Below are positions 9,770 through 42,045 of a stretch of 64,000 nt of DNA, piece after piece. Positions within the stretch are counted from its first letter, which is position 1, and every line of letters starts with the position of its first letter. The position numbers and the translations under genes are program-made. Below the pieces are notes generated by a model, which worked only from the letters and a program-made list of their open reading frames with translations, did no database searches and had not been told where the DNA came from. This DNA is from Albidovulum marisflavi (GTDB taxonomy: Bacteria > Pseudomonadota > Alphaproteobacteria > Rhodobacterales > Rhodobacteraceae): the NCBI RefSeq assembly GCF_025751435.1, contig NZ_JAOWKY010000001.1, positions 1,472,001 through 1,536,000 on the forward strand. The letters run 5' to 3'.

Positions 9770-9862
9770 CCCGGCTTCTGGCGCTGTCGGGGATAATCTA
9801 CGCAGCGGTTTTGCGCTCCGCCTAGTGGCGGCGTGAAGCATCGTATTTACTAATGATGCCGA

Positions 9863-10876: not shown

Positions 10877-11033
10877 TCTGCCTCACCTGATTGGGTAGGG
10901 GCGCCCGTGCCGGACGATTCCGAATCTGGCGAAGGCCCTGTTCTTCATTAGAAACTTTAATATTGTGCAGGCGGGCTTGATCAATGCCCCTTGCGCGGGA
11001 TCAGTGGTGCGGAAACTCACCATTGGGCGTCAG

Positions 11034-21122: not shown

Positions 21123-22771
21123 GCCTTCGCCCCGTAAAGAGCCGCGGCCGCGTGATCCGATATCAGTCCGCAGGCGACATCTTGCGCAAGCGCCGCTGGA
21201 TCGCGGCCGCCGGGGTCGCCAAAGCCGCCGCCACCAGGCGTGTCGAATATCAACCGCTCGCCGGGTTCGACGCGCAGTTCGCACTTGCCCGCGATGTCGG
21301 CATCGCGCCCGGTGACCCTGATCCGCCCCGGCGCGCCGCAAAGCCCGCCCGCGCGACCCTTCGCGGCGTTGCGCAAACGTTCAACCGACAGGAAGACAAG
21401 GAAGGGTTCGCCCACCGCCGAGGTTATCTCGATCCTCTGACCAAGGCCGCCGCGGAACCGTCCCGCGCCGCCCGAATCCGGCAGAAGTTCGCGACGCCAG
21501 ATCGTCACAGGGGCCACGGCTTCGGTCATCTCGACCTGAGAGCCGAAAACGCCGGATGGGTAGGCGGTGGCGGACAGGCCATCGGCCATCGGTCGCGCCC
21601 CGGTTCCGCCGTTGTGCACCAGTTCGACCGCAAAGCGGCGCCCGCCGTTGTGGACGGCTTCCGGCGTGTGGCGCATCGGCAGATCGTACATGCACGACGC
21701 CCCTTCAGCTGGAACGCGGTCCGGCAACGCCTGTGAGAGGCAGCCCAGAACAAGGTCCGGCGTCATTTGTCCCAGCGTGTGGCGCATCGCGACCGGGGCG
21801 GGGCGCTGTGCGTTCAGGATGCACCCTGCGGGTCCCGTCACCTCGAATGGCTCCAGCGAGCCGGCGTTGTTGGGAATGTCCGGCCCGATGATGCAGCGCA
21901 TGGCGAACACGGAATAGGCCGTGGCGTAGTTCAGCGGCACGTTGATGCCCTTCTTCGAGCAGCCTGACGTGCCGGAAAAATCCAGGTGCAGCCGGTCCTT
22001 GGTCACCGTCAGTGTGGCGTGCAGGTCAAGCTCGTTTTCATAGCCGTCGACGGTCAGGACATTGCGGTAAACCCCTTCGGGCACCTCGGCGATCGCGGCA
22101 AGCGTGCCGCGCCGCGACGTGTCGATGATGTGGTCGGCAAGGTCGTTCAGGTCGTCCAGCCCGAAGTCCTCCATCATCGTGACCAGCCGGGCGGCACCAG
22201 ATTCGCAACAGGCGATCAGGGCGTAGATGTCGCCCTCGTTCGCGATGGGTTCGCGCGAATTGGCCTTGACGATGTCCAGCAGCAGGGCGTTCACCTCGCC
22301 ACGCTCGACAAGTTTGCACGGCGGGATCAGCAGCCCTTCGTCGTAGATGTCCGACCCTTCGGGACCCATGCCAAGCCCGCCAAGGTCGACCAGATGCGAG
22401 GTGCAGGAGGTGAAGCCGACCACGCGACCGTCCTTGAACGCGGGCATCATCAGAAGGAAGTCGTTCAGATGCCCCGAGGCCAGCCAGGGATCGTTGGTCA
22501 GGTAGATGTCGCCCGGCGCCATGTTCCGGACCGGGAAACGCTCGCGAAGTGTCTTGACGGCCTCGGCCATGGTGTTGATGTGGCCCGGTGTACCGGTGAC
22601 GGCCTGGGCAAGCATGCGGCCCTGGATGTCGAAGATGCCGGCCGATATGTCGCCGCATTCGCGCACGATCGGCGAAAAGGCCGCGCGGATCAGGGTCTGG
22701 CCCTGCTCTTCCACGACCGCCAGAAGCCGGTTCCACATGACCTGAAGCCGCGCCGGGGAAAGATCGCTCAT
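21119..22771 (-). CDS. hyuB: Hydantoinase B / 5-oxoprolinase C-terminal family subunit
   Basis: 550 residues of the HyuB family. Recognisable blocks: QGQTLIRAAFSPIVRECGDIS near the N-terminus, MLAQAVTGTPGHINTM, YLTNDPWLASGHLNDF, and a C-terminal glycine-rich PGGGGFGDP. With HyuA it forms an ATP-dependent amidase/cyclic imide hydrolase; known relatives are N-methylhydantoinase, 5-oxoprolinase and, more distantly, acetone carboxylase. It starts 3 bases after the hyuA stop and overlaps the aminotransferase start by 4 bases. Next to N-demethylating enzymes an N-methylhydantoin- or creatinine-type substrate is attractive but unproven. Confidence 0.9.
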   Translation of the reverse strand: MSDLSPARLQVMWNRLLAVVEEQGQTLIRAAFSPIVRECGDISAGIFDIQGRMLAQAVTGTPGHINTMAEAVKTLRERFPVRNMAPGDIYLTNDPWLASGHLNDFLLMMPAFKDGRVVGFTSCTSHLVDLGGLGMGPEGSDIYDEGLLIPPCKLVERGEVNALLLDIVKANSREPIANEGDIYALIACCESGAARLVTMMEDFGLDDLNDLADHIIDTSRRGTLAAIAEVPEGVYRNVLTVDGYENELDLHATLTVTKDRLHLDFSGTSGCSKKGINVPLNYATAYSVFAMRCIIGPDIPNNAGSLEPFEVTGPAGCILNAQRPAPVAMRHTLGQMTPDLVLGCLSQALPDRVPAEGASCMYDLPMRHTPEAVHNGGRRFAVELVHNGGTGARPMADGLSATAYPSGVFGSQVEMTEAVAPVTIWRRELLPDSGGAGRFRGGLGQRIEITSAVGEPFLVFLSVERLRNAAKGRAGGLCGAPGRIRVTGRDADIAGKCELRVEPGERLIFDTPGGGGFGDPGGRDPAALAQDVACGLISDHAAAALYGAKA

Positions 22772-22774
22772 GTG

Positions 22775-24865
22775 TCAGCCTCCGATGCGGTCGCGTGTCA
22801 GGACAAGGTTCCCGCGCGCATCGACGCGGGCGGTGAAATCCGCGCCGACGAAGGTCGTCGTCTGCGGCTCGGCAATCAGGGCGGGGCCGGTGATCCGGCT
22901 ACCCGGCGCCAGATTTTCGCGTGGGACAAAGGCGGCATCGCGGGGCTTGCCTGACAGGTCGCAGATGATGGTCCGCTTGCTGTCGGGTGCGAGCGTCGAC
23001 TCCGGTGGTTCTGCCGAAGAAGCGGCAGGCGCTTCGGCGCGCGTCGCGACGCGGACCGACCAGTTCAGGATCTCGATGCTCATCCCTGGCACCGGACGGG
23101 AAAATTGCCGCGAATAGGCCGTCTCGAACGCTGTCGTGAGGGGCCCGATGTCGTCTGGCTGCAGGTCCCGGTCGGGAAGCGGGATCTCGATCTCGTGGCC
23201 CTGGCCGTGGTAGCGCATGAACGCGGTCCGGCCGACTGCCGTATCAGCCGCAGGCGCACCTTGACGCACGACGCCCGTCGCCTCGGCCACCATGCCGGAC
23301 AAAAGCGCGTTGATCCCACCGAGATCAAGCGTCTCAAGCAGCGAATACCTGCTTCGGACGATTTCGTAGGAAACCGGGGCGAACAGGAAGCCCACCGCCG
23401 ATCCGACGCCCGGATTTGCGGGGATCAGTATCCGGGAAATGCCGGCGGCCCGCGCCACGCGGCAGGCGTGAAGCGGGCCGTTGCCGCCAAAGGCGATCAT
23501 GGTTCTGGCGCCCAGGTCCTTGCCAGATTCAACGGCATGCATCCGTGCCGCGCTTGCCATGTTCTCATCCACGATGCGGCTGACGCCGTCGGCCGCCCCC
23601 GGCGCGCCGGTGCTAAGCCTTTCGCCGAGCGTTTCCGCAAGGGTCGCTGCCGCCGGTGCCGGATCTATTGTGAATTGACCCTCCGCGAAGGTTTCCGGCC
23701 GGATATAGCCCAGCACGATGTCGGCGTCCGAGACCGTGGGCTGGGTGCCCCCTCGGCCAAAGGCGACCGGTCCGGGTTCCGATCCCGCGCTTTGCGGTCC
23801 GACGGTGAGGCGCCCCAGCCGGTCGATGGCCGCGATTGATCCGCCGCCCGCCCCGATTTCGATCATCTCGATCACGGGGATGCGGACCGGCATTCCCGAC
23901 CCTTTGATGAACCGCGCCGCCCGCGCAATCTCGAATGCACGAGAGGTCTGCGGGGAACCGCCGTCGATCAGGCAAAGCTTGGCTGTCGTCCCGCCCATGT
24001 CGAAGGAAAGCACGTTTTCCAGCCCGCATTCCGAGGCAATGCGTGCCGCCAGTATGGCTCCGCCCGCAGGCCCGGATTCGACCAGCCGGATCGGAAACGC
24101 GGCGGCTGTCCTGACGGTCGTCATACCGCCACCCGCTGTCATCATCAGGATCGGGCAAGCCAGGCCCTCGACCGCGAAACGCGCCTCGAACGCGCTGAGA
24201 TAGCGTGCCATCAGCGGCTGGATATAGGCATTGGCGAGCGTGGTGCAGAGCCGGTCGAACTCCCGTGCTTCGGGGCTGACCTCGGACGAGATCGAGATGG
24301 AAAGCCCCGGCCGGGCGCTTGCGATCGCTTCGCGCAGGCGCTGTTCATGCAAGGGATTCGCGTAGGAATGCAGCAGGCATATCGCGATCGCTTCCGCGCC
24401 GGCCGCGTCGATCTGCGCCACAAGGTCCGGGATCGCGCCTTCATCCAGCGGGATCAGGACCTGACCGTCCGCCGACATGCGTTCGCGGATCGTCAGGGAG
24501 CGGTCACGCCCCACCAGCAGGTCGGCCTTGCGCAGGTTGATATCGTATTGGCTGTAGCGACGCTCATACCCGATCTCGAGAATGTCGCGAAACCCCTCGG
24601 TGGTGACGGTGACGACGCGCGCCCCGCGCTTCTCGATCAGCGCGTTGGTGGCAAGCGTCGTTCCATGGATAAAGCCCGTCACCTCACCCAGTCCGCGGTC
24701 CGAGGCGGACAGCGCCCTGCGAACGCCCTCTATCGCGCCATCCGCGGGATTCTGGTGCGTGGTGAGCGTCTTGGTCGAGGCGACGATCCGGTCGGCATCC
24801 TCGATCAGGACGGTATCGGTGAAGGTTCCGCCAATGTCGACGGCGAGCCGCAAGCTTTGTTGCAT
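22775..24865 (-). CDS. hyuA: Hydantoinase A / 5-oxoprolinase N-terminal family subunit
   Basis: 696 residues, ASKHA-type ATPase. Nucleotide motifs: DIGGTFTDTVLI at the N-terminus, SFDMGGTTAKLCLIDGG centrally, and IAFGGNGPLHA. It supplies ATP-driven activation of the cyclic amide while HyuB completes the site. First gene of a four-gene minus-strand operon (hyuA, hyuB, aminotransferase, racemase). Its upstream region of 330 bases to the next gene should contain the operon promoter. Substrate is undetermined; 5-oxoproline, N-methylhydantoin and other hydantoins are all possible. Confidence 0.9.
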   Translation of the reverse strand: MQQSLRLAVDIGGTFTDTVLIEDADRIVASTKTLTTHQNPADGAIEGVRRALSASDRGLGEVTGFIHGTTLATNALIEKRGARVVTVTTEGFRDILEIGYERRYSQYDINLRKADLLVGRDRSLTIRERMSADGQVLIPLDEGAIPDLVAQIDAAGAEAIAICLLHSYANPLHEQRLREAIASARPGLSISISSEVSPEAREFDRLCTTLANAYIQPLMARYLSAFEARFAVEGLACPILMMTAGGGMTTVRTAAAFPIRLVESGPAGGAILAARIASECGLENVLSFDMGGTTAKLCLIDGGSPQTSRAFEIARAARFIKGSGMPVRIPVIEMIEIGAGGGSIAAIDRLGRLTVGPQSAGSEPGPVAFGRGGTQPTVSDADIVLGYIRPETFAEGQFTIDPAPAAATLAETLGERLSTGAPGAADGVSRIVDENMASAARMHAVESGKDLGARTMIAFGGNGPLHACRVARAAGISRILIPANPGVGSAVGFLFAPVSYEIVRSRYSLLETLDLGGINALLSGMVAEATGVVRQGAPAADTAVGRTAFMRYHGQGHEIEIPLPDRDLQPDDIGPLTTAFETAYSRQFSRPVPGMSIEILNWSVRVATRAEAPAASSAEPPESTLAPDSKRTIICDLSGKPRDAAFVPRENLAPGSRITGPALIAEPQTTTFVGADFTARVDARGNLVLTRDRIGG

Positions 24866-26957: not shown

Positions 26958-28313
26958 CTAGCCGTAGACGAGATTTGGCAGGAACGTGATGACCTCTGGG
27001 AAGAACATGCAGATCAGCAGTCCCACGATCTGCAGCAGCAGGAAGGGGATGGCCGAGCGGAAGATGTCGCTCATCGGGATCGAGTCCGGGGCGACGCCGC
27101 GCAGATAGAAAAGCGCGTAGCCGAAGGGCGGCGACAGAAAGCTCATCTGCATGTTCACGAGGTACAGCACACCGAACCACAGAACCAGGTCGTCGGTGTT
27201 GTCGAAACCGAAGGCGGCGGCGCCAAGCGACTTGATGATCGGCACGAAGATCGGCACGCAGAGCAGCAGGATCCCCACCCAGTCCAGGAACATGCCCAGC
27301 ACGATCAGGATGATCTGCATCACGATCAGGATGCCCCAGGGGCCTAGGCCCATGCCCTGCATGGTCTCCTGCACGAACTCCTGCCCGCCTTCCAGCACAT
27401 AGAGCCCGACGAAGATGGTCGCGCCGAACATGATCCAGATGACCATGGCGCTGGCCTTGAGCGTGGTCAGGCAGGCCTCGCGGATGGTGGGCCAGTCAAG
27501 CCGGCGGTGGATGGCCGCGACGATGAAGGCGCCGAAGGTGCCGATGCCTGCGGCCTCGACCGGTGTCGCCACGCCCGAGAAGATCACGCCCAGAACCACG
27601 ACGATCAGGCTGATCGGCGCCGACATCTTGCCGAGCAGGTGCAGCTTTTCCCGCGTGCTGACCCGCTCCTCTATCGGGATCGGCGGGCCGAGGCGCGGGT
27701 TGATGTAGCTGCGGACGGTCACGTAGAGGATGTAGAGCCCCGAAAGCATCAGGCCCGGTATGACGGCGCCGATGAACAGTTCGCCCACCGATTGCTCGGC
27801 GACGACCGCGTAGATGATCGCCAGGATCGACGGCGGGATCAGGATGCCCAGCGTTCCGCCCGCCATGATCGCGCCCATGGCGATCTTGGGGTCGTAGCCG
27901 CGCTTCAGCATGGCCGGCAGGGCGATGATGCCCATGGTCACGACTGCGGCGCCGATCACGCCTACCATCGCCGCAAGGATCGTCGAGGCGATGATCGTGG
28001 CCGACGCCAGCCCGCCCTTCACGCCGCCAAGCACCTTGTAGATCACGTCGAACATGTCGTTGATGATCCCGGCTCGCTCCAGCATGGCGGCCATGAATAT
28101 GAACAACGGGATCGCCGACAGCTGATAGTTCGTCATCAGCGGGAAGATGCGGCTTGGCACGATGTTCAGCGCGCGTGCGTCCCCCAGGATGAACAGGAAG
28201 ACGCAGGCCAGACCGCCGGTGACGAAGGCAAGGGGAAGCCCCGCCATCAGGAGCACCAGCAGCGAGCCGAACATGATGAGCGTGAGCAGCTCGATTGAAA
28301 TGTCCAGTCCCAT
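26958..28313 (-). CDS. TRAP transporter large permease (DctM)
   Basis: 451 residues, hydrophobic throughout with about 12 membrane segments. Family blocks: VTGGLACVFLFILGD, GGTLGILIPPSILAIIYAV and a C-terminal SPPFGYALFYLRGVAPD. It is the main sodium-coupled transport subunit of a TRAP system. It starts 3 bases after the dctQ stop. With a substrate-binding protein resembling 2-oxoacid binders, uptake of keto acids or related carboxylates is plausible. Confidence 0.93.
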   Translation of the reverse strand: MGLDISIELLTLIMFGSLLVLLMAGLPLAFVTGGLACVFLFILGDARALNIVPSRIFPLMTNYQLSAIPLFIFMAAMLERAGIINDMFDVIYKVLGGVKGGLASATIIASTILAAMVGVIGAAVVTMGIIALPAMLKRGYDPKIAMGAIMAGGTLGILIPPSILAIIYAVVAEQSVGELFIGAVIPGLMLSGLYILYVTVRSYINPRLGPPIPIEERVSTREKLHLLGKMSAPISLIVVVLGVIFSGVATPVEAAGIGTFGAFIVAAIHRRLDWPTIREACLTTLKASAMVIWIMFGATIFVGLYVLEGGQEFVQETMQGMGLGPWGILIVMQIILIVLGMFLDWVGILLLCVPIFVPIIKSLGAAAFGFDNTDDLVLWFGVLYLVNMQMSFLSPPFGYALFYLRGVAPDSIPMSDIFRSAIPFLLLQIVGLLICMFFPEVITFLPNLVYG

Positions 28314-28316
28314 GCG

Positions 28317-29642
28317 TCAGGCCCCTTTCGCGATAACGCGGATGTCTTTGGAAAGCTTGGATATGCCTTGCAGGACCAGCAGCGCGCCGCCCACGAACAT
28401 CATCCATTTCATCGGCCAGAGCGGCACTTCCCATTCATTGAAGCTGATTTCGCCCCAGCGGATCGACGGATCGGTCCAGTCGCCCAGCGAGAGGGCCCCC
28501 AGCATCTGCCAAAAGCCGATCTGGCCGCGCGCCCATTCGGACACGACGGAGTTGCCCGAGGGCACCGCGATGGCGTCCATGGCAAAGATGTAGGACGTCA
28601 CCAGAAGCGTTCCGGCGAAGATGAAGAAGAAGATCGAAGTGAAGAGGTCGGTCCAGGCCTTGCGTCGCGGCGACATCGACGCATAGAAGATGTCGACCCG
28701 GACATGGCCTTCGGTCAGCATCGCGTATGCACCGGCGATCAGGTACTGCATGCCGAACATCAGATACATCGATTCATGCGCCCAGCTCGTGGGAGAGTTG
28801 AACACGTAGCGGCTGATGACCTCGAAGTAGTAGACGAAGACAGCGATCACCGCCCAGTAGCTGACGAATTCGCCGGCATGAAGCGACAGCTTGTCGATCC
28901 AGTTTTGCGCCCATTCGTGGTCCGGCTTGCGGGCGTCCGGGTCGATCTGCGCGGCTTTGGCTGCCGTTTCGGCGTCGATGAAGGTTTCCTCTGGCAGTTC
29001 CAGCGCCAGGCTTTCGTTGGCCTTGCGCACAAGGCCAGGGATCAGCAGCGCATCGATCGCCATCAGTGCGAGGATCAGGTAGAACGCATAGCGCGCCGCG
29101 TTGGCCCAGAACGCCCGCTTTTCCGTTGCAGCGTCCGCGACAGGTTGTGCCTGCGACAGGTCGGCCTCGGCCGTGGCAATCCGATCGCGACCAGAGGTCA
29201 TCGCGTCCTCGGCCCGCTTCAGCCGGCGCTCGGCGCTTTTCTTGGCAAAGGACTCCGGCTCGGCCGCCGCCACTTCCGCCCTCAGCGCGTCGATGTCGGC
29301 CTCGGCCGCCTCGATGCGGGGGGCTTCGCGTTCGACCACACGCTCGGCCACCCTGACCAGGTTGATCGCATCCGACAGTTCCGCGCGGGCATCGCGTTCC
29401 GCCGCATTGCTCCAAAGCACGAACAGGAAGATGGGAATGTAGAGAAGCCCCAGCAGGCTTCTCAGATAGAAGCGGTGCAATCCGAGGATCCCGCCCGTCA
29501 CCAGGATCAGATAGGCAAGCGCGGCGCTGTAGCTGGTCTGCTTCGGGCGCGCGCGGCGCGCCAGGATCATTCCCACGACTGGGAATAGCAGCAGCCCGAG
29601 CCAATAAGCCCAATGGGGCAGGGTGAAGTCGATGTTGGGCAT
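28317..29642 (-). CDS. TRAP transporter small permease (DctQ), enlarged with N-terminal TM2-like and coiled-coil region
   Basis: 441 residues, about twice the usual DctQ length. Residues 1-80 hold hydrophobic helices with GGILGLHRFYLRSLLGLLYI, matching the TM2-domain pattern (short loop with HRFY between two helices). Residues about 85-165 are Glu/Ala/Arg-rich and should form a coiled coil. A further membrane helix (about 170-195) leads to the normal four-helix DctQ core (about 255-435) with YFEVISRYVFNSPTSWAHE and LTEGHVRVDIFY. The start at 29642 was preferred to 29687 because it begins the hydrophobic domain. Role of the extra part unknown; it may sense or scaffold. Confidence 0.85.
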   Translation of the reverse strand: MPNIDFTLPHWAYWLGLLLFPVVGMILARRARPKQTSYSAALAYLILVTGGILGLHRFYLRSLLGLLYIPIFLFVLWSNAAERDARAELSDAINLVRVAERVVEREAPRIEAAEADIDALRAEVAAAEPESFAKKSAERRLKRAEDAMTSGRDRIATAEADLSQAQPVADAATEKRAFWANAARYAFYLILALMAIDALLIPGLVRKANESLALELPEETFIDAETAAKAAQIDPDARKPDHEWAQNWIDKLSLHAGEFVSYWAVIAVFVYYFEVISRYVFNSPTSWAHESMYLMFGMQYLIAGAYAMLTEGHVRVDIFYASMSPRRKAWTDLFTSIFFFIFAGTLLVTSYIFAMDAIAVPSGNSVVSEWARGQIGFWQMLGALSLGDWTDPSIRWGEISFNEWEVPLWPMKWMMFVGGALLVLQGISKLSKDIRVIAKGA

Positions 29643-29676
29643 TGCGGTGTCCTGATGATGTGCCGCCTCATGGCGA

Positions 29677-29709
29677 GGCCGGGCCATGGCGATTACGCCA
29701 GGCCCGGCC
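29677..29709 (-). other. Strong intra-operon hairpin between dctP and dctQ
   Basis: A perfect 9-pair stem GGCCGGGCC / GGCCCGGCC encloses a further TGGCG / CGCCA stem and an ATTA loop. It sits just after the dctP stop and has no T-tract. Such hairpins after binding-protein genes typically protect the upstream message from 3' decay, giving more binding protein than permease. That role is inferred. Confidence 0.7.
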
Positions 29710-29723
29710 GATTTGCTTTGCGG

Positions 29724-30824
29724 TCAGAGGTCCAGGGTAAGGCCTTCGATCTGCTCCGGCGTGACGTAGCCAAGCGAGCCTGACATCATGTAGTCCAGTT
29801 GGATCTTGAAGACCCGCGCGGCGTCCTTGTCGCGGTTGGCGTACTTGAACCAGATCGGCACGGCGACTTCGGTCAGAAGCTCGACATCGTCCTGCGTCAA
29901 ACGCGTGATCTCGGTGCCGTCGGCCTCGAACTTGGCCCAGGCTTCCTGGTCGGCCTTCTGGATCGCCGCATGGTGCATGTCCGAATATGCGTGCGTCTCC
30001 AGTTCCACGAACTGCTTCATCTCGGGCGACAGCGCATCCCAGGACGATTGGGACACGGTGATGTCCATGATGTCGACCGGCTGGTAGACCGACATGAAGC
30101 CCGGAGGCCCCATCGAGATGTAGTTCGTCACCTGGCTGAAGCCGAGCGCGTAGTTCACGGCCGGTCCCACGTAGTCGGCCACGTCGATCGTGCCCTTTTC
30201 CAGCGCCGGGAAGATTTCCGATCCCGGAAGAACGGTGGTTTCGGCCCCGATCTCGGTGAAGACCTCGGCGACCATACCGCCGGGAAGGCGCATCTTGCGG
30301 CCCCGGAAGTCGTCGATCGAGCGGATCGGCACCTTGGAGTGGATGATGTTCGGCCCGTGGTGCACCGGTCCCACGAAATACATGCCCTGCGCCGCGTAAA
30401 GTTCGCGCGCGATCTCAAGCCCGCCAAGGCCGTAGTAGAACACGTCGAATTCATGCGGGTTGCGCAGGCCAAGCGGATAGGACGTCAGGAACGTCGCCGC
30501 CGGAATGATGCCCTGAGCGTAGATCGTGAACGGGTTCACCGCATCCAGAACGCCGTTCTTGACGGCATCGTACAGCTGGAAGTCGCCCACGACGTCATTC
30601 GCGCCGAAGGGCTGGAACGCAAGCTCCCCGCCGGTTTTCTCAACGATGGTGGCACACCAGTCCTTGAAGATCTGAAGGCCGGCGCCGCCAGGCCAGGATG
30701 TCTGGATCTTCCATGTCGTGCCGTTTGCTTGCGCCGAAGCGATGTGCGGCGCTGCAAGGGTCGATGCGCCTGCCGCAGCAAAAGCCCTGAGAGCGCCCCT
30801 GCGCGTGGTGGTCTTGGTCGTCAT
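29724..30824 (-). CDS. TRAP transporter substrate-binding protein (DctP), TakP-like
   Basis: 366 residues. A twin-arginine-like start (RRGALRAFAAAGAS) with cleavage near AHIASAQA suggests export, possibly by Tat. The mature protein starts TWKIQTSWPGGAGLQIFKD, and Arg-rich binding blocks RKMRLPGG and a GPAVNYALG-type segment follow. The pattern resembles the 2-oxoacid-binding subgroup exemplified by TakP of Rhodobacter sphaeroides; this is from memory of the family, not a search. AGGAG precedes the ATG. First gene of the dctPQM operon. Confidence 0.9.
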   Translation of the reverse strand: MTTKTTTRRGALRAFAAAGASTLAAPHIASAQANGTTWKIQTSWPGGAGLQIFKDWCATIVEKTGGELAFQPFGANDVVGDFQLYDAVKNGVLDAVNPFTIYAQGIIPAATFLTSYPLGLRNPHEFDVFYYGLGGLEIARELYAAQGMYFVGPVHHGPNIIHSKVPIRSIDDFRGRKMRLPGGMVAEVFTEIGAETTVLPGSEIFPALEKGTIDVADYVGPAVNYALGFSQVTNYISMGPPGFMSVYQPVDIMDITVSQSSWDALSPEMKQFVELETHAYSDMHHAAIQKADQEAWAKFEADGTEITRLTQDDVELLTEVAVPIWFKYANRDKDAARVFKIQLDYMMSGSLGYVTPEQIEGLTLDL

Positions 30825-35222: not shown

Positions 35223-37097
35223 TCAGGCGCTTTCGATGGCGGCCTGCGGTTCCGTTACCCCCTGCGGTGAGATGCGCAGCGCGCGCAGCGCGTTCAGGAT
35301 CACAGCCACGTCGATGACCTCTTGGATCACCGCGCCCTCGACCGGCGTGAGATAGCCGAAGGCTGCTGCGATCATGCCCATCACGGACAGGCCGATGCCG
35401 GCGACCACGCTTTGAATGGCAATGTGTCGCGCCTGTTGGGCGATTTCTATGCCCGGCCCCAGGCGGTCGATCCGATCCACCAGAAGCACCACGTCTGCCG
35501 CTTCGGCCGAGGCGGCGGCGCCGCGGGCCCCCATGGCGACACCGACATCTGCCGCTGCCAGCGCCGGCGCGTCGTTGACGCCATCGCCCACCATCATGAC
35601 CGGGCTGTCGGTCCGCTCGGTCAGGACCAGAAGCACCTTCTGGTCGGGGGTCAATCCAGCGCGCACACCGTCCAGCGACAGCCCGCTGCTCACGCTTTCG
35701 GCGACCTCCGCCCTGTCGCCGGTCGCAAGCAGGATCCGGCCGATGCCCCGCCTGCGCAGGCGCAGCAGCATGTCGGGCGCTTCCGTGCGCAGCGGGTCCG
35801 ACATGACCAGGCGACCGGCCAGGCGCCCATCGACCGCGACGGCGACGTGGACCGAGCCCGCCGAAAGCGGCGCAGCAGTTCCCGGCGGCTCGCTTGCGTG
35901 GCGGCTGACGAACTCATCGCCGCCAACCATGATCTCTTGCCCGTCGACCGTGCCGATGACGCCTTCACCCGGGATCTCGGTGATCCTGGTCGGCACTGGC
36001 AGGTCAAGTCGCTTCAGGCGTGCGGCCGCGACAAGGGCTTGGGCGACGGGGTGCTTGGAAGCCTGATCAAGCGCCGCCGCGAACCGCAGGATGTCGTCGT
36101 CCGCATGGTCGCCCCGGCTTTCTATCGAAACGATTTGCGGGCGCCCGTCCGTCAGGGTTCCGGTCTTGTCCAGGATCAGGGTGCGGATACGCGCCATTGC
36201 TTCCAGCGGCTTCGCCCCCTTTATCAGTACGCCGAAATGGGCGGCGCGCGATAGGCCGGCGACAAGCGCCACCGGCACGGCAAGGATCAGCGGGCAGGGT
36301 GTCGCCACGACAAGCACGGCGACCGCCCGGATCGGATCGCCGGTGGCCCACCATGCCGCCAGCGCGATGGAGACCGAGATCGCCAGGAGCCCCAGCGACC
36401 AGCGGTCGGCGAGCCGCGACATCGGCGCCTTGGACCGCTGCGCCGCCTCGACCAGCCTGACGATGCCGGCATAGGTGCTGTCCTTGGCGATGCGGGTCGC
36501 GACAAGGTCGAACGCCTCGCCCGCGTTCGTCGAGCCGCTCATGGCGTCCTCGCCTTCGGTCAGGCGTGCGGGAAGCGATTCACCTGTCAGGGCTGATGTG
36601 TCCAGGTAGGCGACGTCCGATGCGACGCGCCCGTCAACCGGGACGGTATCGCCTTGCCGGATCAGCAGCCTGTCGCCAGGGGCGATCTGATCCAGCGCCA
36701 CCTCTTCAAGCGCGCCATCGCGGTGCCGGGTCGCCTTGCGCGGGATGCGCGACAGAAGATCGTGCATTTCCCGCCGCGCGCTGCGCTCGGCGTAGCTTTC
36801 AAGGAACGTGCCGCCAGAATACATGACCGCGACGACGGCGGCCGCCAATGTCTCGCCGAAGGTCAGGGCCGCGGTCATCGACAGTGCTGCGACGATGTCC
36901 AGCCCGACTTCCCCGCTTCGAAGGCTTTGCACGATCTCGACCACAAGCGCGGCCAGGATCGGCAGGACGCCCAACGTCCAGACAAGATCGGCTGCTCTCG
37001 CTTGCCCGGCTGACCAAAGCACAAGCCCGGCCAGAAGGCCCGTCAGTCCCACCAGCAGGAAAGCCGTCTTGAAGCGGTCGCTGTTCAAGCGGTCCAT
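35223..37097 (-). CDS. Heavy-metal P-type ATPase with TPC motif, no N-terminal metal-binding domain
   Basis: 624 residues. Catalytic DKTGTLTDG, phosphatase loop LTGESLPA, hinge GDGVNDAPALAAADVGVAMG and the SEHP-type HPVAQAL are present. The transmembrane metal-site motif is TPC (ATPCPLILAVPVALV) instead of CPC, and there is no N-terminal CxxC domain or His-rich tail. TPC-type members are grouped apart from Cu and Zn/Cd pumps and their ions are less certain. Convergent with the hybrid kinase (51-base gap). Metal specificity not assignable. Confidence 0.88.
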   Translation of the reverse strand: MDRLNSDRFKTAFLLVGLTGLLAGLVLWSAGQARAADLVWTLGVLPILAALVVEIVQSLRSGEVGLDIVAALSMTAALTFGETLAAAVVAVMYSGGTFLESYAERSARREMHDLLSRIPRKATRHRDGALEEVALDQIAPGDRLLIRQGDTVPVDGRVASDVAYLDTSALTGESLPARLTEGEDAMSGSTNAGEAFDLVATRIAKDSTYAGIVRLVEAAQRSKAPMSRLADRWSLGLLAISVSIALAAWWATGDPIRAVAVLVVATPCPLILAVPVALVAGLSRAAHFGVLIKGAKPLEAMARIRTLILDKTGTLTDGRPQIVSIESRGDHADDDILRFAAALDQASKHPVAQALVAAARLKRLDLPVPTRITEIPGEGVIGTVDGQEIMVGGDEFVSRHASEPPGTAAPLSAGSVHVAVAVDGRLAGRLVMSDPLRTEAPDMLLRLRRRGIGRILLATGDRAEVAESVSSGLSLDGVRAGLTPDQKVLLVLTERTDSPVMMVGDGVNDAPALAAADVGVAMGARGAAASAEAADVVLLVDRIDRLGPGIEIAQQARHIAIQSVVAGIGLSVMGMIAAAFGYLTPVEGAVIQEVIDVAVILNALRALRISPQGVTEPQAAIESA

Positions 37098-37191
37098 CAG
37101 TCATGTCCCCCGCCAGGCCCCGTTCGGGACCGTGCGACGACTATGCACAGGAGCGTTGCCGACAACACCACCAAATCACGCCCAAGCGGTG

Positions 37192-37758
37192 CTATTCGGC
37201 GTTGCGCCGGACAACCTCCTGCATGAACCGATGGCGGATCACGGCCGGGTCAAGGTCAATGACCGGCACCGGGACGTTGCCGCTGTCGCACTTTGCCACG
37301 ATCACCGTCATCCGCCCGCCGTCCAACGCGTCGCGAAGTGTCCTTGCGGTGTCCTCGGCCCTGCATTCGACGACGTGGTTGCATCCGCAGGCCCGCGCCA
37401 CGGCGGCAAGAGAGGTCTTTTGTCCGGCGTAGGTCGGCTGGTCGCCGGTCGATCCGTAGCTGCCGTTGTCGATGATCAGCAGGGTGAAGTTGCTCGCCAC
37501 GTTGTTGGCGATCGTGGGCAGAGTGCCAAGGTTCGTCAGGACCGAGCCGTCACCGTCGATGCCCACCACCGGCGCCTTTTGCGCCAAGGCCAGCCCCAGC
37601 CCGATTGATGAGGCAAGACCCATCGTTCCCAGCATGTAGAAATTCGCCGGACGGTCGCCGTGAAGGAACAGCTCCTGGCTGGGAAGGCCGATGTTGCACA
37701 CGACCAGCGCGTCGTCGATGACCGGCAGGATCGACCTGATGATGTCGCTGCGGATCAT
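37192..37758 (-). CDS. comE: ThDP-dependent decarboxylase beta subunit (sulfopyruvate decarboxylase type)
   Basis: 188 residues corresponding to the ThDP-pyrophosphate-binding half of the enzyme: GLASSIGLGLALAQ, then GDGSVLTNLGTL and IIDNGSYGSTGDQ, the GDG...N metal/ThDP motif. ComE pairs with ComD to decarboxylate sulfopyruvate to sulfoacetaldehyde; phosphonopyruvate decarboxylases are homologous single chains. Start 37758 overlaps the comD stop by 4 bases. The longer open frame to 38094 is inside comD and not coding. Substrate in this operon is uncertain because no sulfoacetaldehyde or sulfolactate gene is nearby. Confidence 0.85.
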   Translation of the reverse strand: MIRSDIIRSILPVIDDALVVCNIGLPSQELFLHGDRPANFYMLGTMGLASSIGLGLALAQKAPVVGIDGDGSVLTNLGTLPTIANNVASNFTLLIIDNGSYGSTGDQPTYAGQKTSLAAVARACGCNHVVECRAEDTARTLRDALDGGRMTVIVAKCDSGNVPVPVIDLDPAVIRHRFMQEVVRRNAE

Positions 37759-38255
37759 TTCGCGCCTCCCCAGAAGCTTGCGTCCATCAGGATGGCGACG
37801 GGCTTCCTCGCCATGAAGCAGTGGGCCAGGATCCCGTCCAGTTCCTCGGCGTCGTCGGGTCGGTGGAAGTGATAGGTCGGGATCCCCAACTGCGCCAGAA
37901 GCCCCTTGGTGTGTACGGCCATCTCGACCTGGCAGGCGACCTTTTCGCCGACTTCGCCGCGATAGCTGATCAGCATCGGCAGCGGGATGTTGTAGTACTG
38001 GATCAGCGTGACAAGAGCGTTGATCGTGACCCCGATGGCGGTGTTCTGCATGATGATGCCGGCGCGCTTGCCGCCCATGTAGGCGCCCGCGCACAGGCCC
38101 ATCCCCTCATCCTCCTTGTTTGCGGGGACATGAAGGAACCGGTCATCCGATGTCAGCAGATCAATCACCCCGGCAAGCTGCTTGCAGGGCACGGTCGTGA
38201 CGAACTCCACCCGGTTGCGGGCCAGGCTGTCAGTGATCTTCCTGTGTATGCTCAT
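37755..38255 (-). CDS. comD: ThDP-dependent decarboxylase alpha subunit (sulfopyruvate decarboxylase type)
   Basis: 166 residues matching the PYR half of ThDP decarboxylases: VEFVTTVPCKQLAGVIDLL, the catalytic Glu region NKEDEGMGLCAGAYMGGKR, and QNTAIGVTINALVTL. Forms a heteromer with ComE. ATG 38255 was chosen because the protein then begins like ComD; the extra upstream frame overlaps the racemase gene. There is a 76-base gap after the racemase stop, so it could have a separate ribosome start within the same transcript. Confidence 0.85.
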   Translation of the reverse strand: MSIHRKITDSLARNRVEFVTTVPCKQLAGVIDLLTSDDRFLHVPANKEDEGMGLCAGAYMGGKRAGIIMQNTAIGVTINALVTLIQYYNIPLPMLISYRGEVGEKVACQVEMAVHTKGLLAQLGIPTYHFHRPDDAEELDGILAHCFMARKPVAILMDASFWGGAK

Positions 38256-38331
38256 CTGTGTTTCGACTGCCTTTCCAAGGGCGGGTTCGACCCGGTTTCG
38301 CGATCGGTGCCGGTCGCAGACCTTGCCGCCG

Positions 38332-39081
38332 TCAGAGCGTCTGCAGCAGCCGTCCCGGCGCGTCCTTGGCCAGCGTTGCGCCCGTGCTGCGCGCCATGTG
38401 CCAGGCCAGAACCTGATTGCTGCTGAGCACCGGGATGCCAAGCTCTGATTCCAGATCATCGATCACGTCCAGCGTACGCAGGTTCGTGCAGGACAGGAAC
38501 AGGGCTTCGACACCTTCCGAACCGGCGACCTCGCGCGCGGCGGCGCGGATTGACTCGGGCGCGATGCGTGCCACCCGCGCCTCTGCTTCTTCCCCGAAGG
38601 TGACCGCGGCCGCGACGGGGAAGCCCGCCGCCTCGAACGCATCGCGAACCGGCGCGGCGATGTTTTCCACATAGGGCGTCACCAGCCCGATGTGCTTCAC
38701 GCCAAGGGCTGCCAGGGCCGCCAGCGCCGCCGTCAGCGGATCGGTCACCACCGGCGTTTCGACGCCGCGCCGCACCATCCTGGCGACGGCTTCGGCCCCG
38801 ATCAGCGTGGTGCCGGAGGTGCAGCCGTACCCCAGGGCGTCAAAGCGCGCGGCACGTGGCAGAAGCCGTGCCCCCCGCGGCAGTTCCGCCTCCATCGCAG
38901 CGATGGAGTCAGTCGAAAGCTCTTCGCCCGAAGGGATGCGGCTGACGTAGAGCGCGACATCCCGGTCGGGAAACAGCCGCCGGAAATCCTGTTCCAGCGT
39001 CTCGTCGGCCTGCAGCACGATCAGACCCAAAGTGGCCTTGGCACCGATTGGACCGACGAGATCGAAACCGACAGTCTTCAT
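38332..39081 (-). CDS. Asp/Glu racemase / maleate isomerase family protein (EutA-like)
   Basis: 249 residues with both superfamily cysteines (GYGCTSGTTLIG and LFLSCTNLRTLDV). Related to maleate cis-trans isomerase and to EutA of ectoine utilisation clusters. It overlaps the M24 gene stop by 4 bases (ATGA), so is translationally coupled. It differs from the other family member at 19319. Likely acts as a racemase or epimerase on a two-carbon-branched or hydroxy/amino acid made by the upstream enzymes. Confidence 0.82.
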   Translation of the reverse strand: MKTVGFDLVGPIGAKATLGLIVLQADETLEQDFRRLFPDRDVALYVSRIPSGEELSTDSIAAMEAELPRGARLLPRAARFDALGYGCTSGTTLIGAEAVARMVRRGVETPVVTDPLTAALAALAALGVKHIGLVTPYVENIAAPVRDAFEAAGFPVAAAVTFGEEAEARVARIAPESIRAAAREVAGSEGVEALFLSCTNLRTLDVIDDLESELGIPVLSSNQVLAWHMARSTGATLAKDAPGRLLQTL

Positions 39082-40244
39082 TCGTGGATCTCCGGCAGTT
39101 CGGAGGGCGCGCGCCGCGACAGAAGCTCTGGGCCGTTTGCCCTCAGGACGATGTTTTCCTCGTGGACAAGGATGCGGCCGGGGACGATCTCCACACCCGG
39201 TTCAAGCGTCAGGACCATCCCCTCGCGAAGCACGGTCGTGTCCTTGGGCGTGAACGATGGCCATTCGGTCAGCGTCAGGCCAAGGCCATGGCCAAGCCGC
39301 CCCCCGCCCGGTGTCGCGCCCTCGGCGCGAAGCGCGTCGGTCAGGATCCGATGCGCGTCACAGGCCAACATGCCGGGGCGCAGCCGATCCAGTGCGACTT
39401 CGGTCGTGGCGTAAAGCGCCGCATGGGCACGGCGCGCATCGTCGGGCGCGCGGCCGATGGCGTAGTTGCGGTCGAAGTCGCAGAAGTAGCCGTCCCGCAC
39501 GGCGCCGGTGTCCAGCATCAGGATGTCGCCCGGGGTCAGGGGGCGGTCATCCGCAGGTGATATGACATCGCCGTAGCCGCCAGGCCCCGCGCCACCCGCG
39601 ACATAGCTGACCCAGTCCGCGCCCTCTTGCAGAAGTGCCACCTGAAATTCCCTGAAAACCCGCGCAAGCGGCACGCCGGGGCGGGCAAATTCTGGCACTC
39701 GTTCATAGGCTGCGTCGGCGATCGCGCAGGCGGCGCGGATCTTTTCGACCTCCGCCTCTGACTTGATCTCGCGCACGCGATGGATGGCTGCGGTCCCGTC
39801 GGCAAATTCGCGGGGCTGAAGACGCGCCTGCAGCCGCGCAAAGTCGGCGACGGGCATGCGAAGATGCGTCTCAAGGCCCATGGGCAGACCAATTCTTGCC
39901 CTTTGCGGAGTGATCGAGGCCACGGTGTCGGCAAGAAGGCTCACGCCGTCGTCGTGCGGGTCGGGCGCATCCCAGGTGCGGATATCGTCGATCCAGCACC
40001 GCCCCATCAGTTCCGCCCCGATCGCGGGAATGACCGCCACCGGGTCGCCCTTGGCCGGAACGACGATGAACCAGGGCCGCGCAGGGCTTTCCCAGAAGCG
40101 GGTCAGGAAGCCGGTCACGTAGAACACATCGGGCGGCGTCGTCAGAAGAAGCGCGTCAAGCCCGTGACGCGCCATTTCCGACTGCAGGGCGGCAGTCCGG
40201 CGGCGATATTCACCCGCCGGGAATATCAAGGACGCTTCACCCAT
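39078..40244 (-). CDS. M24 family metallohydrolase (Xaa-Pro dipeptidase/creatinase/ectoine-hydrolase type)
   Basis: 388 residues: creatinase-like N-domain and a pita-bread catalytic domain. The metal ligands are visible: Asp in LMLDTGAV, Asp in YFCDFDRN, His in LGHGLGL, Glu in LTLEPGVEI and Glu in VHEENIVL. Members include proline dipeptidases, ectoine hydrolase DoeA/EutD and the DMSP lyase DddP; the sequence alone does not choose. The frame is open further upstream but ATG 40244 starts the domain and overlaps the preceding gene by 8 bases. Racemase and PLP lyase neighbours recall eutABD clusters. Confidence 0.85.
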   Translation of the reverse strand: MGEASLIFPAGEYRRRTAALQSEMARHGLDALLLTTPPDVFYVTGFLTRFWESPARPWFIVVPAKGDPVAVIPAIGAELMGRCWIDDIRTWDAPDPHDDGVSLLADTVASITPQRARIGLPMGLETHLRMPVADFARLQARLQPREFADGTAAIHRVREIKSEAEVEKIRAACAIADAAYERVPEFARPGVPLARVFREFQVALLQEGADWVSYVAGGAGPGGYGDVISPADDRPLTPGDILMLDTGAVRDGYFCDFDRNYAIGRAPDDARRAHAALYATTEVALDRLRPGMLACDAHRILTDALRAEGATPGGGRLGHGLGLTLTEWPSFTPKDTTVLREGMVLTLEPGVEIVPGRILVHEENIVLRANGPELLSRRAPSELPEIHE

Positions 40245-41280
40245 TCGCGGGCCCCTCGCTGATGATGCACAGCACATGCGCGTCGCGCCCGACACCGTCA
40301 ATCCCTGCCAGAAGCGCCGCAACGCCAGCCCCGCCCGAGGGCGTCGTTTCCAGCCCCGCCGCGGCAAGCGCGTCCGTGCCCGCCTTTGCCTCGTCTTCGG
40401 ACAGGATCGTGAAACGGTCCGCATCGCAGGCAAGGTCCGCAAGCGCCAGTAGCGACGGCGTCTTGCAGTCCAGACGACCCATGCAGGACGCCGGGCCGGT
40501 GGTGGTGACCGGCCGGCCCGAACGGATGCTTTCGTAAAGCGCAGGCGCAACGTCGGGTTCGACGACGATCATCTGGGGCGCCGAACCCCAGGTTTCGCGC
40601 AACTCGGCAGCGATCGCGGCGGCAAGTCCGCCGACGCCTGCCTGCAACAGGACATGCGACGGAGGCTCTTGCATCTGGCTGGCGATCTCGACGGCCATCT
40701 GGCGGTAGCCTTCCATGACGTGGAAGGGGAGCTCAGTGTAGCCTGGCCAGGAACTGTCCGACAGCAACGTCCAGCCGTTTTCCTCGGCGGCGCGCGCCGC
40801 GGCCTCCATGCTTTGCTCGTAATCCGAGCCCGCCCGAACGACGCGCGCGCCACGTGCTGCCAGCCGGTCGGCAAAAGCCTGCGGAACCGCTTCGGACAGG
40901 TAGACGACCGCGGCCGCGCCGAACACGCGCGCGCCCGCCGCGACCGAAAGGCCATGGTTGCCGGCGCTGGCGGTCACATAGGTCCGGCCGGACAGCGCCT
41001 TGCTCAGGTCTCCTCCAGCCTTTGCGGCCTCGCGCGCGATGGCATGGGCCGCACCCAACGCCTTGAAGCTGCCCAGTCCCATCCGGCCGCGTTCGTCCTT
41101 GAGCGTGAGGCGGGCGACCTGCGCCTGTGCCGCCAGGTCGGGGCTGTCCACAAGCGGCGTGATCCTGTGCGCCGGGCACAGCGCCAACAGGGCGGCCACG
41201 GCGCGCGTGTCCGCCCCCTTGGCGCGCGGAAGATCCGGCATGCCCTTGCCGCGGAAAGGATTGTCGATCACCTGCGTCAT
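40237..41280 (-). CDS. PLP-dependent lyase, diaminopropionate ammonia-lyase / threonine dehydratase-like
   Basis: 347 residues of fold type II. PLP lysine in LGSFKALGAAHA, phosphate loop and glycine block VTASAGNHGLSVA, and a C-terminal ETTPSGGAGVAAL. Nearest families are DpaL (2,3-diaminopropionate ammonia-lyase, usually about 400 residues) and EutB-type hydroxy-amino-acid dehydratases. First gene of the five-gene operon, divergent from the Lrp/AsnC regulator. It should make a 2-ketoacid plus ammonia, the kind of substrate that ComDE would decarboxylate. Confidence 0.82.
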   Translation of the reverse strand: MTQVIDNPFRGKGMPDLPRAKGADTRAVAALLALCPAHRITPLVDSPDLAAQAQVARLTLKDERGRMGLGSFKALGAAHAIAREAAKAGGDLSKALSGRTYVTASAGNHGLSVAAGARVFGAAAVVYLSEAVPQAFADRLAARGARVVRAGSDYEQSMEAAARAAEENGWTLLSDSSWPGYTELPFHVMEGYRQMAVEIASQMQEPPSHVLLQAGVGGLAAAIAAELRETWGSAPQMIVVEPDVAPALYESIRSGRPVTTTGPASCMGRLDCKTPSLLALADLACDADRFTILSEDEAKAGTDALAAAGLETTPSGGAGVAALLAGIDGVGRDAHVLCIISEGPANG

Positions 41281-41454
41281 GCGTGCGCTCCGCTTCTGTT
41301 TGACCGGAAGCTAACCGGAACGGGGGCTGCACTTCCCGGACAAGTTGGCTGCCATCGGTCCGATATTCGGCCGTGATATGGTCGTTTGGGCGTGAAACCG
41401 GCTGATTGGCTGTTCTTTGCTTGGAGCTGGGCGCGTTTTCGGACAGAACGGGGC

Positions 41455-41919
41455 ATGGACAGATTCGATGCCCTCATTCTTGAAGCCATCCAGGCGAACA
41501 ACCGGCTGACCGCCGAGGCGCTGTCGCAGATCGTCTGCCTGTCGCCTGACGCCTGCCGCAAGCGATTGGCCAAGCTGCGCGCCGAGGGCTATGTCGAGGC
41601 GGATATCTCGATTCTTGACCCGCAGAAGCTTGGGCGGGGCCTGATGCTGATCGTCGAGGTCACGCTGAACTCGGAACGGCCAGCGGACCTGGACCTTTTC
41701 CGCAGCCGGATGCGCGACGCCCCGGAAGTGATGCAGTGCTACTACGTCACCGGCAACAGCGACTTCATCCTGATCCTTTCCGCCGTCGATATGGCTGACT
41801 ACGAGCGTTTCACGCGGCGCCATTTCTTCGCCGAGGATAACATCACGCGCTTCAAGACGAGCGTGGTCATGGATAGGGTGAAGGTGGGTTTTTCGTTTCC
41901 GTTGGAAACCAAGGGCTGA
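41455..41919 (+). CDS. Lrp/AsnC-family transcriptional regulator
   Basis: 154 residues: helix-turn-helix (RLTAEALSQIVCLSPDACRKRL) and RAM ligand-binding domain (CYYVTGNSDFILILSAVD). Amino-acid-responsive regulators of this family usually control the adjacent divergent operon, here the PLP-lyase/M24/racemase/comDE genes across a 174-base gap. The start at 41455 begins right at the DNA-binding helix; the open frame to 41386 has no family match. Ligand unknown, presumably the amino acid degraded. Confidence 0.9.
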   Translation: MDRFDALILEAIQANNRLTAEALSQIVCLSPDACRKRLAKLRAEGYVEADISILDPQKLGRGLMLIVEVTLNSERPADLDLFRSRMRDAPEVMQCYYVTGNSDFILILSAVDMADYERFTRRHFFAEDNITRFKTSVVMDRVKVGFSFPLETKG

Positions 41920-41972
41920 TCGCGGTTCTGCCGAAAAAAACCTGCCTGTGGCTGGTGCGGAGGCTGGCGGAC

Positions 41973-41986
41973 TTAACGCGCGATAA
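41973..41986 (+). promoter_or_regulatory. Candidate FNR/FixK-type box upstream of the YbhB-like gene
   Basis: TTAAC-N4-GATAA, centred about 66 bases before the ATG at 42046. Similar in form and distance to the boxes at 45572 and 47995. By-eye assignment. Confidence 0.3.
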
Positions 41987-42045
41987 TGCGCGGCGGGGCC
42001 GGCTGGTCTTGGCTTGTGCCTGCGCGACCACCGCAGGAGGTGAAG

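Follow-up and report, generated by a model that had tools for sequence, protein, structure and literature searches.

We examined a stretch of DNA of 64,000 nucleotides from Albidovulum marisflavi (contig NZ_JAOWKY010000001.1, positions 1,472,001 to 1,536,000; hereafter the window), whose source genome assembly comprises 3.8 Mb in 10 contigs. The subject of this work is a run of five enzyme genes and a divergent Lrp/AsnC-family regulator gene, which a first-pass annotation had joined into one operon. We consider it probable that the locus consists of two independent modules placed head to tail: a catabolic trio, encoding a pyridoxal 5'-phosphate (PLP)-dependent lyase, an M24 metallo-hydrolase and a EutA-like racemase, and a recently inserted sulfopyruvate decarboxylase, ComDE. 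The two most likely became neighbors by chance, through that insertion.

The first module, which includes the Lrp regulator, would be a catabolic unit of alphaproteobacteria, many of them marine, with Lrp controlling the trio. A small compound would be imported and cleaved by the M24 metalloenzyme at a C-N bond, either of an amide or of a cyclic amidine. Inversion of an alpha-carbon by the two-cysteine racemase would make both isomers usable, and the L-directed PLP lyase would remove the beta substituent, leaving an enamine that goes on to a 2-oxoacid and ammonia. The 2-oxoacid would be pyruvate if the substrate core is 2,3-diaminopropionate. What the data show directly are the identities of the genes, their conservation, the segment lacking in L032, the residues and an Xsc in the genome, whereas the substrates and the direction of the pathway are inferred; the trio probably breaks down a small diamino-acid-like compound. 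ComDE, the second module, would have been inserted recently between the racemase gene and a P-type ATPase gene, and would make sulfoacetaldehyde for an Xsc enzyme encoded elsewhere in the genome. The features of the locus are as follows.

41455-41919, plus strand: Lrp/AsnC-family regulator, divergent from the trio (Pfam AsnC_trans_reg, 68.7 bits)
41359-41371, no strand: candidate Lrp-type operator (TCCG, AT-rich core, CGG) between the Lrp and lyase genes
40237-41280, minus strand: PLP-dependent lyase, diaminopropionate ammonia-lyase-like, 347 aa (PALP, 206 bits)
39078-40244, minus strand: M24 metallo-hydrolase, prolidase/ectoine-hydrolase-like, 388 aa (Peptidase_M24, 121 bits; Creatinase_N, 57 bits)
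38332-39081, minus strand: EutA-like protein of the Asp/Glu racemase superfamily, 249 aa (158 bits to the EutA model, cut-off 318)
37755-38255, minus strand: ComD, sulfopyruvate decarboxylase alpha subunit, 166 aa (TIGR03845, 156 bits, cut-off 148)
37192-37758, minus strand: ComE, sulfopyruvate decarboxylase beta subunit, 188 aa (TIGR03846, 234 bits, cut-off 221.5)
37184-38327, no strand: segment missing in locus L032, presumed inserted cassette with comDE (blastn blocks end at 38328 and 37183)
35223-37097, minus strand: heavy-metal P-type ATPase, flanking the insertion site and belonging to neither module (TIGR01525, 505 bits; synteny)

Gene layout and conservation of the trio

All six genes named by the first-pass annotation are present as intact reading frames with profile matches. 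The enzyme genes are transcribed from the minus strand in the order lyase, M24, EutA-like, ComD, ComE. They had been described as overlapping, which holds within the trio (lyase and M24 by 8 bases, M24 and EutA-like by 4 bases) and for ComD and ComE (4 bases), but not at the junction of the two groups, where a 76-base gap separates the stop of the EutA-like gene from the start of ComD. Gene overlap couples the trio internally and ComD/ComE internally, each group by itself. The G+C content is 0.62-0.64 for ComDE and 0.67-0.69 for the trio (window, 0.65), and the third-position G+C in the ComDE versus trio comparison is 0.85 versus 0.77-0.81, a mild contrast that is not diagnostic. No sigma-70-like promoter was found in 36900-42000, a result that is uninformative for this organism.

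We searched public genomes with the EutA-like protein and analyzed the best 80 of at least 106 confirmed loci, counting genes by tblastn of the window proteins (E 1e-6). The lyase gene lies upstream of the EutA-like gene in 64/80 loci and the M24 gene in 73/80; both stand directly upstream in 62/80, an arrangement that is beyond chance. A divergent Lrp relative is found upstream in 19/80 loci, one of which (L091) lacks the trio. These counts support the lyase, M24 and EutA-like genes as an old and conserved unit, in some genomes together with Lrp. Neither ComD nor ComE was detected in any of the 80 loci, 75 of which extend 1.2 kb or more beyond the EutA-like gene on its downstream side; ComDE was also absent from 48 further short EutA-like loci (flanks up to about 1.5 kb), some of which lack the trio. 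This second set excludes the window's own locus, and one member, L174, is the same place as L032. The neighborhood search recommended by the first-pass annotation recovered the trio, in 62/80 loci, and not the five genes as one conserved group (ComDE, 0/80). The 80 loci also yielded no relative of slcD, hpsP, Xsc or CuyA; weak HpsN-like matches occur in 1/80 and HpsO-like matches in 6/80, with identities of at most 36%. The neighbors of the trio are diverse: by names assigned mostly by eye, no gene group besides the trio itself occurs in more than 20/80 loci, the commonest being ATP-binding cassette (ABC) ATPases (20 loci) and Lrp (19, window included). The EutA-like gene is present in 91/198 sampled genomes of the family (E at most 1e-50). 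The trio is not described in the titles and abstract openings of the matches listed from the literature searched, which lay mostly outside subscription journals, and no paper there joins sulfopyruvate decarboxylase, ectoine and a racemase; a single paper mentions both diaminopropionate ammonia-lyase and roseobacter.

Family scores and catalytic residues of the trio

Pfam confirms the superfamilies of the trio and Lrp, and the lyase falls just short of the diaminopropionate ammonia-lyase model NF006058 (253 bits, cut-off 276). The scores against the ectoine-utilization models are far lower: 89 bits to EutB for the lyase (cut-off 413), 68 bits to the ectoine hydrolase EutD/DoeA for the M24 protein (cut-off 575; 86 bits to archaeal PepQ, cut-off 630) and the 158 bits to EutA given above. 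The earlier description of the trio as ectoine-utilization-like is therefore a loose one: the superfamilies are the same, but no Eut cut-off is reached, and diaminopropionate ammonia-lyase, not EutB, is the nearer family of the PLP enzyme.

Residues were compared in alignments of each window protein with 59/60 lyases, 66/74 M24 proteins or 69/75 EutA-like proteins, the remainder being excluded for length. The Schiff-base Lys73 of the lyase is found in 59/60 rows (1 gap) and Asp175 of the SW-GY motif in 60/60. The second-acid position, Asp120 of E. coli diaminopropionate lyase and the base for the D-isomer, is Ala in 58/60 rows, Ser in one and Asp in one. YgeX of E. coli acts equally on L- and D-diaminopropionate, according to passages of PMC12507026. 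Unlike YgeX, the window lyase may act on the L-isomer only, as the loss of the second acid suggests, and an L-only lyase would fit the presence of a racemase. Cys87 and Cys198, the two catalytic cysteines of the EutA-like protein, are conserved in 70/70 rows. In the M24 protein the five metal-ligand positions (D, D, H, E, E), aligned to prolidases, are invariant in 67/67 rows. The presumed EutD of S. meliloti pSymB differs at 4/5 of these positions in both alignments, and at the fifth in one; the pSymB record is without annotation, and eutA and eutD were placed there by similarity and position only. Because of these differences, the window M24 protein is likely a metal-dependent hydrolase unlike the presumed pSymB ectoine hydrolase. 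The hydrolysis, racemization and deamination to a 2-oxoacid that the first-pass annotation had proposed remain the likeliest logic of the trio, a conserved unit in the loci counted above.

ComDE as an extra segment

A near relative is L032 (Defluviimonas sp. WL0075; NCBI taxonomy places Defluviimonas under Albidovulum, Paracoccaceae), where the EutA-like protein is 90% identical to that of the window. The two DNAs align by blastn from 41891 to 38328 and again from 37183 to 35257; between the two blocks are 1,144 bases in the window versus 12 bases in L032. The 1,144-base segment consists of ComDE with 72 bases upstream and 8 bases downstream. The same P-type ATPase gene follows in both genomes, in L032 directly after the EutA-like gene. 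Insertion of the comDE segment is the simpler reading, since no other EutA-like locus fetched in these sets has ComDE alongside; loss in L032 is the less likely alternative. A search for repeats at the cassette, as traces of a mobile element, yielded short direct repeats that look like chance and, besides these, no more than two imperfect inverted repeats (86%). The longer one, of 21 bases, has arms at 38305-38325 (upstream end of the segment) and 37251-37271 (inside comE) and is indistinguishable from chance. In L032 the M24 gene (7834-9004) appears split over two frames, by a frameshift or a sequencing error.

ComDE identity, relatives and Xsc

The earlier call of a sulfopyruvate-decarboxylase-type enzyme is borne out by ComD and ComE, both of which exceed the curated NCBIfam cut-offs (listed above); the Pfam match of ComD is under its own cut-off (24 vs 26.8). 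ComE matches at E 1e-20 were obtained in 95/394 family genomes sampled, some of them distant. Within the genus there are matches in 8/22 genomes at E 0.001, and close ones (at least 74% identity) in 5/22, the window's own included. In 19 family ComDE neighborhoods (17 genomes), hpsN is present in 9, slcD without hpsN in 3 and neither in 7 (one a short contig); none of the 19 contains a trio gene. Among four genus mates, two have complete operons for 2,3-dihydroxypropane-1-sulfonate (DHPS) degradation (L193, L194), one is a short contig with hpsP, and the fourth has no DHPS gene above 30% identity near ComDE. A DHPS-Xsc pathway that includes sulfopyruvate decarboxylase ComDE is described for alphaproteobacteria in parts of PMC11382572. 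Three annotated plasmid relatives, examined out of 87 matching plasmid records, show the order TRAP-hpsN-hpsO-hpsP-usp-comDE-slcD (TRAP, tripartite ATP-independent periplasmic transporter), with hps-type names assigned after an R. pomeroyi gene list in one part of PMC4334477.

The window ComDE is 64-77% identical to those of 60 places, within and outside DHPS operons (some places listed twice). In a FastTree phylogeny of concatenated ComD and ComE, the window clusters with L133, L122, L135, L115, L129 and L112 (support 0.98); support is 0.78 for the pair with L133, 0.92 with L133 and L122, and 0.58, 0.52 and 0.07 at the remaining nodes of the clade. Five of the six other members have comDE without hps or slcD, and one has comDE-slcD (a 28% HpsO match was ignored). 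L216 (genome G271), outside the tree, also has comDE-slcD.

The first-pass annotation had noted that no Xsc gene accompanies the group. This is correct for the neighborhood but not for the genome, which encodes Xsc far from the window at C4:314595-316325 (934 bits, cut-off 676), beside an acetate-kinase-like open reading frame (ORF) and a MocR-like regulator as read by eye. We then used a 198-genome sample (91 with the EutA-like gene at E 1e-50, 47 with close ComE) and took from it the first 40, in handle order, of the 47 close-ComE genomes and, for comparison, the first 40 with no ComE match, omitting G004, whose match is weak. Xsc was found in 37/40 close-ComE genomes (36 over the cut-off) vs 18/40 without ComE (Fisher p 7e-6, or 3e-5 counting only over-cut-off Xsc, with genomes treated as independent). 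The close-ComE genomes without Xsc are G032, G043 and G086. On contig C6 of the window's own genome, an HpsN-like dehydrogenase gene (48% identity) lies with a short-chain dehydrogenase gene (L212, 8534-11675); by eye, genes for a LacI-type regulator and an ABC sugar transporter are nearby, possibly another polyol or sulfonate pathway.

Weighing one pathway against two modules

ComDE probably stands outside the trio pathway, because it is absent from all 80 EutA-like loci and occupies a segment that L032 lacks, because its relatives go with sulfonate genes and Xsc, and because its lineage consists mostly of stand-alone pairs. We infer from these four points that the two modules lack a functional link, and the earlier proposal that ComDE decarboxylates the product of the trio is not supported. 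Several observations weigh on the other side. The five genes lie on one strand, and the 76-base gap is compatible with co-transcription. The long branches of the window ComDE lineage leave room for a shifted specificity. The genome has no close hpsN, slcD or CuyA (best matches 49%, 41%, and 34% over 84 residues), whereas the same queries give 77-96% for hpsN and 59-82% for slcD in ComDE neighborhoods. Cysteate, as a source of sulfopyruvate, can be transaminated without a dedicated gene. One trio locus, L069 of Palleronia salina, encodes a protein with 83% identity to a TRAP binding protein of the DHPS type. EutA-like and ComE genes also occur together in 32/198 genomes (odds ratio 3.3, p 7e-4, genomes treated as independent). 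A shared lifestyle may explain part of this co-occurrence: in the ComE-free set of 40, Xsc accompanies the EutA-like gene in 9/13 genomes and occurs in 9/27 lacking that gene, and no such trend is seen among the 40 with ComE (23/26 with the EutA-like gene, 14/14 without). Only in the window's genome (G000) and G032, of the 32, are the two genes at most 10 kb apart on one contig (coordinates compared by hand, draft contigs). In G032 comE lies about 4.5 kb from the EutA-like gene, in a DHPS operon on the opposite strand beside a different cluster. That region (L211, 7378-18025) contains slcD, comDE, hpsO, hpsP and hpsN and adjoins an EutA-like cluster of 40% identity.

A single five-step pathway, in which the M24 enzyme frees an amino acid, the EutA-like protein racemizes it, the lyase makes a 2-oxoacid and ComDE converts it to an aldehyde, would account for the common strand, short spacing and intact genes, and for the EutA-like/ComE co-occurrence. 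Against it are the absence of ComDE from the 80 loci, the extra segment relative to L032, the ties of ComDE relatives to DHPS genes and Xsc, and the lack of any aldehyde-processing gene recognized by eye among the window ORFs beside ComDE; we regard such a pathway as quite improbable. A lyase of this fold expels the beta-leaving group, so that cysteate yields sulfite, not ammonia, and diaminopropionate, serine or threonine-type substrates yield pyruvate or 2-oxobutyrate. It therefore cannot supply ComDE with sulfopyruvate. Slightly less credible still, and very improbable in our judgment, is a cysteate module. Here M24 would free cysteate from an amide, the EutA-like protein would be the missing cysteate racemase, CuyB, the lyase would act as a cysteate sulfo-lyase, and the share that is transaminated (sulfopyruvate) would go to ComDE. 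Cysteate is aspartate-shaped, the substrate type of the EutA-like racemase superfamily; the genome has Xsc and no close CuyA, and the cysteate racemase gene of R. pomeroyi is still without assignment in passages of PMC11382572. But the lyase carries diaminopropionate-lyase motifs and has no significant similarity to R. pomeroyi CuyA (17 bits, E 0.55), and on the latter ground we rejected the cysteate-module reading. None of the 80 loci showed a relative of slcD, comDE, Xsc or CuyA, and L069 is the only one with a gene for a DHPS-type TRAP binding protein.

For the trio itself, two more specific readings were weighed. A variant of hydroxyectoine catabolism, with EutA, EutB and EutD analogues, draws on the superfamilies and AsnC/Lrp regulator shared with the eut clusters in the accessible parts of PMC5924519, on a window Lrp 34% identical to one in the S. 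meliloti pSymB stretch, and on a EutA-like relative that adjoins Ehu-annotated transporters in L210. The wide misses of the Eut cut-offs and the weak pSymB comparison (EutA-like 33% and M24 25% identity with the presumed eut genes; no match for the lyase in that stretch at E 1e-4) led us to reject canonical eut. The variant faces the same difficulties, together with the at least four of five M24 ligands missing from the presumed pSymB EutD, and neither a deacetylase, an aminotransferase nor a semialdehyde dehydrogenase was recognized by eye beside the trio; we consider the variant unlikely. A little more plausible, though still a long shot, is that the Lrp-controlled trio degrades a so far unrecognized nutrient or osmolyte of the sea with a 2,3-diaminopropionate core, such as an ectoine analogue with a five-membered ring. 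M24 would open the ring, the racemase would deal with both isomers, and the L-only lyase would convert the diamino acid to pyruvate and ammonia.

The two-module reading removes a tempting sulfonated-amide pathway as probably false and shifts attention to a widespread uncharacterized operon, whose small enzymes should be easy to assay. It also indicates that comDE can exist by itself, served by an Xsc encoded at another place in the genome, and sulfonate-pathway calls made from adjacent genes alone would therefore miss such cases.

Candidate operator and other gene clusters in the window

A consensus for an Lrp operator was read by eye from Lrp-lyase intergenic regions. The site at 41359-41371 is the sole window match with at most 1 mismatch, a weak and partly circular result; at up to 2 mismatches the 17 matches in the window vs 16.4 expected are at chance level. 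Shared Lrp control of ComDE was tried and rejected: near ComD this weak motif has no match even when 2 mismatches are allowed.

A second EutA/arylmalonate-decarboxylase-like protein, with 26-29% identity to the first, is encoded in a minus-strand cluster at 19319-24865. Its gene comes after those for hydantoinase A, hydantoinase B and an aminotransferase, and a TRAP transporter (26958-30824) is encoded upstream on that strand. This cluster is likely a hydantoin or oxoproline utilization operon. Two MttB-family methyltransferase genes without an in-frame stop lie around two dimethylglycine-dehydrogenase-like flavoproteins (DAO + GCV_T), a region that is probably for methylated-amine or betaine demethylation:

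8210-9841, minus strand: MttB/flavoprotein region
10965-15841, plus strand: MttB/flavoprotein region
17739-19274, plus strand: MttB/flavoprotein region

Comparison with known systems

Like the ComDE of the DHPS-Xsc system (PMC11382572, in part), the window subunits pass the equivalog cut-offs and Xsc is in the genome; unlike it, the window ComDE is without hpsNOP or slcD alongside and stands behind an unrelated trio. The eutABCDE genes for ectoine and hydroxyectoine utilization, described for S. meliloti and R. pomeroyi in parts of PMC5924519 and PMC13188858, share with the window a racemase, a PLP enzyme of threonine dehydratase fold, an M24 hydrolase and an AsnC/Lrp regulator (PMC5924519, in part), but each window enzyme misses the Eut cut-off. 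Neither EutC, EutE nor a transporter was recognized by eye among the window neighbors, not every one of which was scanned by library. Diaminopropionate ammonia-lyase (YgeX/DpaL) acts, for example, in the reductive uric acid pathway, according to sections of PMC12507026. Of its features, the window lyase keeps the catalytic lysine and, in the S/T-W-x-G-Y motif, the Asp; it falls short of the E. coli enzyme by about 50 residues in length and has Ala in place of the second acid.

We also inspected annotated plasmid clusters, a hand-picked few of hundreds of matching records. Genes for diaminopropionate lyase and M24 hydrolase turn up in them repeatedly, sometimes jointly and sometimes separately, along with Lrp, M20 and EutA-like genes. 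Lyase and M24 modules of the window superfamilies are found in R. pelagicus (L210), A. crassostreae (L217), V. cortegadensis (L218), A. pusense (L221) and S. alkalisoli (L224), their M24 proteins being 45-52% identical to that of the window. An Lrp gene is present in 4/5 (directly beside the lyase in L221 and L224), and a EutA-like gene in L210 and L217. Each of the five has an annotated amidohydrolase, M20 or Zn-dependent hydrolase gene; M20 was confirmed with Pfam in L217, L218 and L221, and in 4/4 plasmid-cluster M20 hydrolases tested. Transporter genes lie near the module in L210, L218, L221 and L224. Those of the plasmid clusters are Ehu-annotated or amino-acid ABC transporters, and in Vibrio cortegadensis a BCCT transporter with RidA. 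RidA acts on 2-aminoacrylate, the enamine from beta-elimination. The five module lyases have 392-399 residues, with the second Asp in 4/5 where the window lyase has Ala. By length, lyases of about 340-355 residues (L146, L220, L222 and the window) have Ala at this position, and the six of about 390-400 residues have Asp in five and Ala in one. On S. meliloti pSymA (L209, 7836-10529), a EutA-like gene directly precedes an annotated L-2-aminothiazoline-4-carboxylate hydrolase gene and an M20 hydrolase gene. It is another racemase of the EutA-like group beside ring- or amide-opening hydrolases, and a candidate for the racemase of a cysteine-from-aminothiazoline route. Without naming the substrate, the plasmid contexts support a sequence of the type 'hydrolyze, racemize, eliminate' acting on a small zwitterionic compound.

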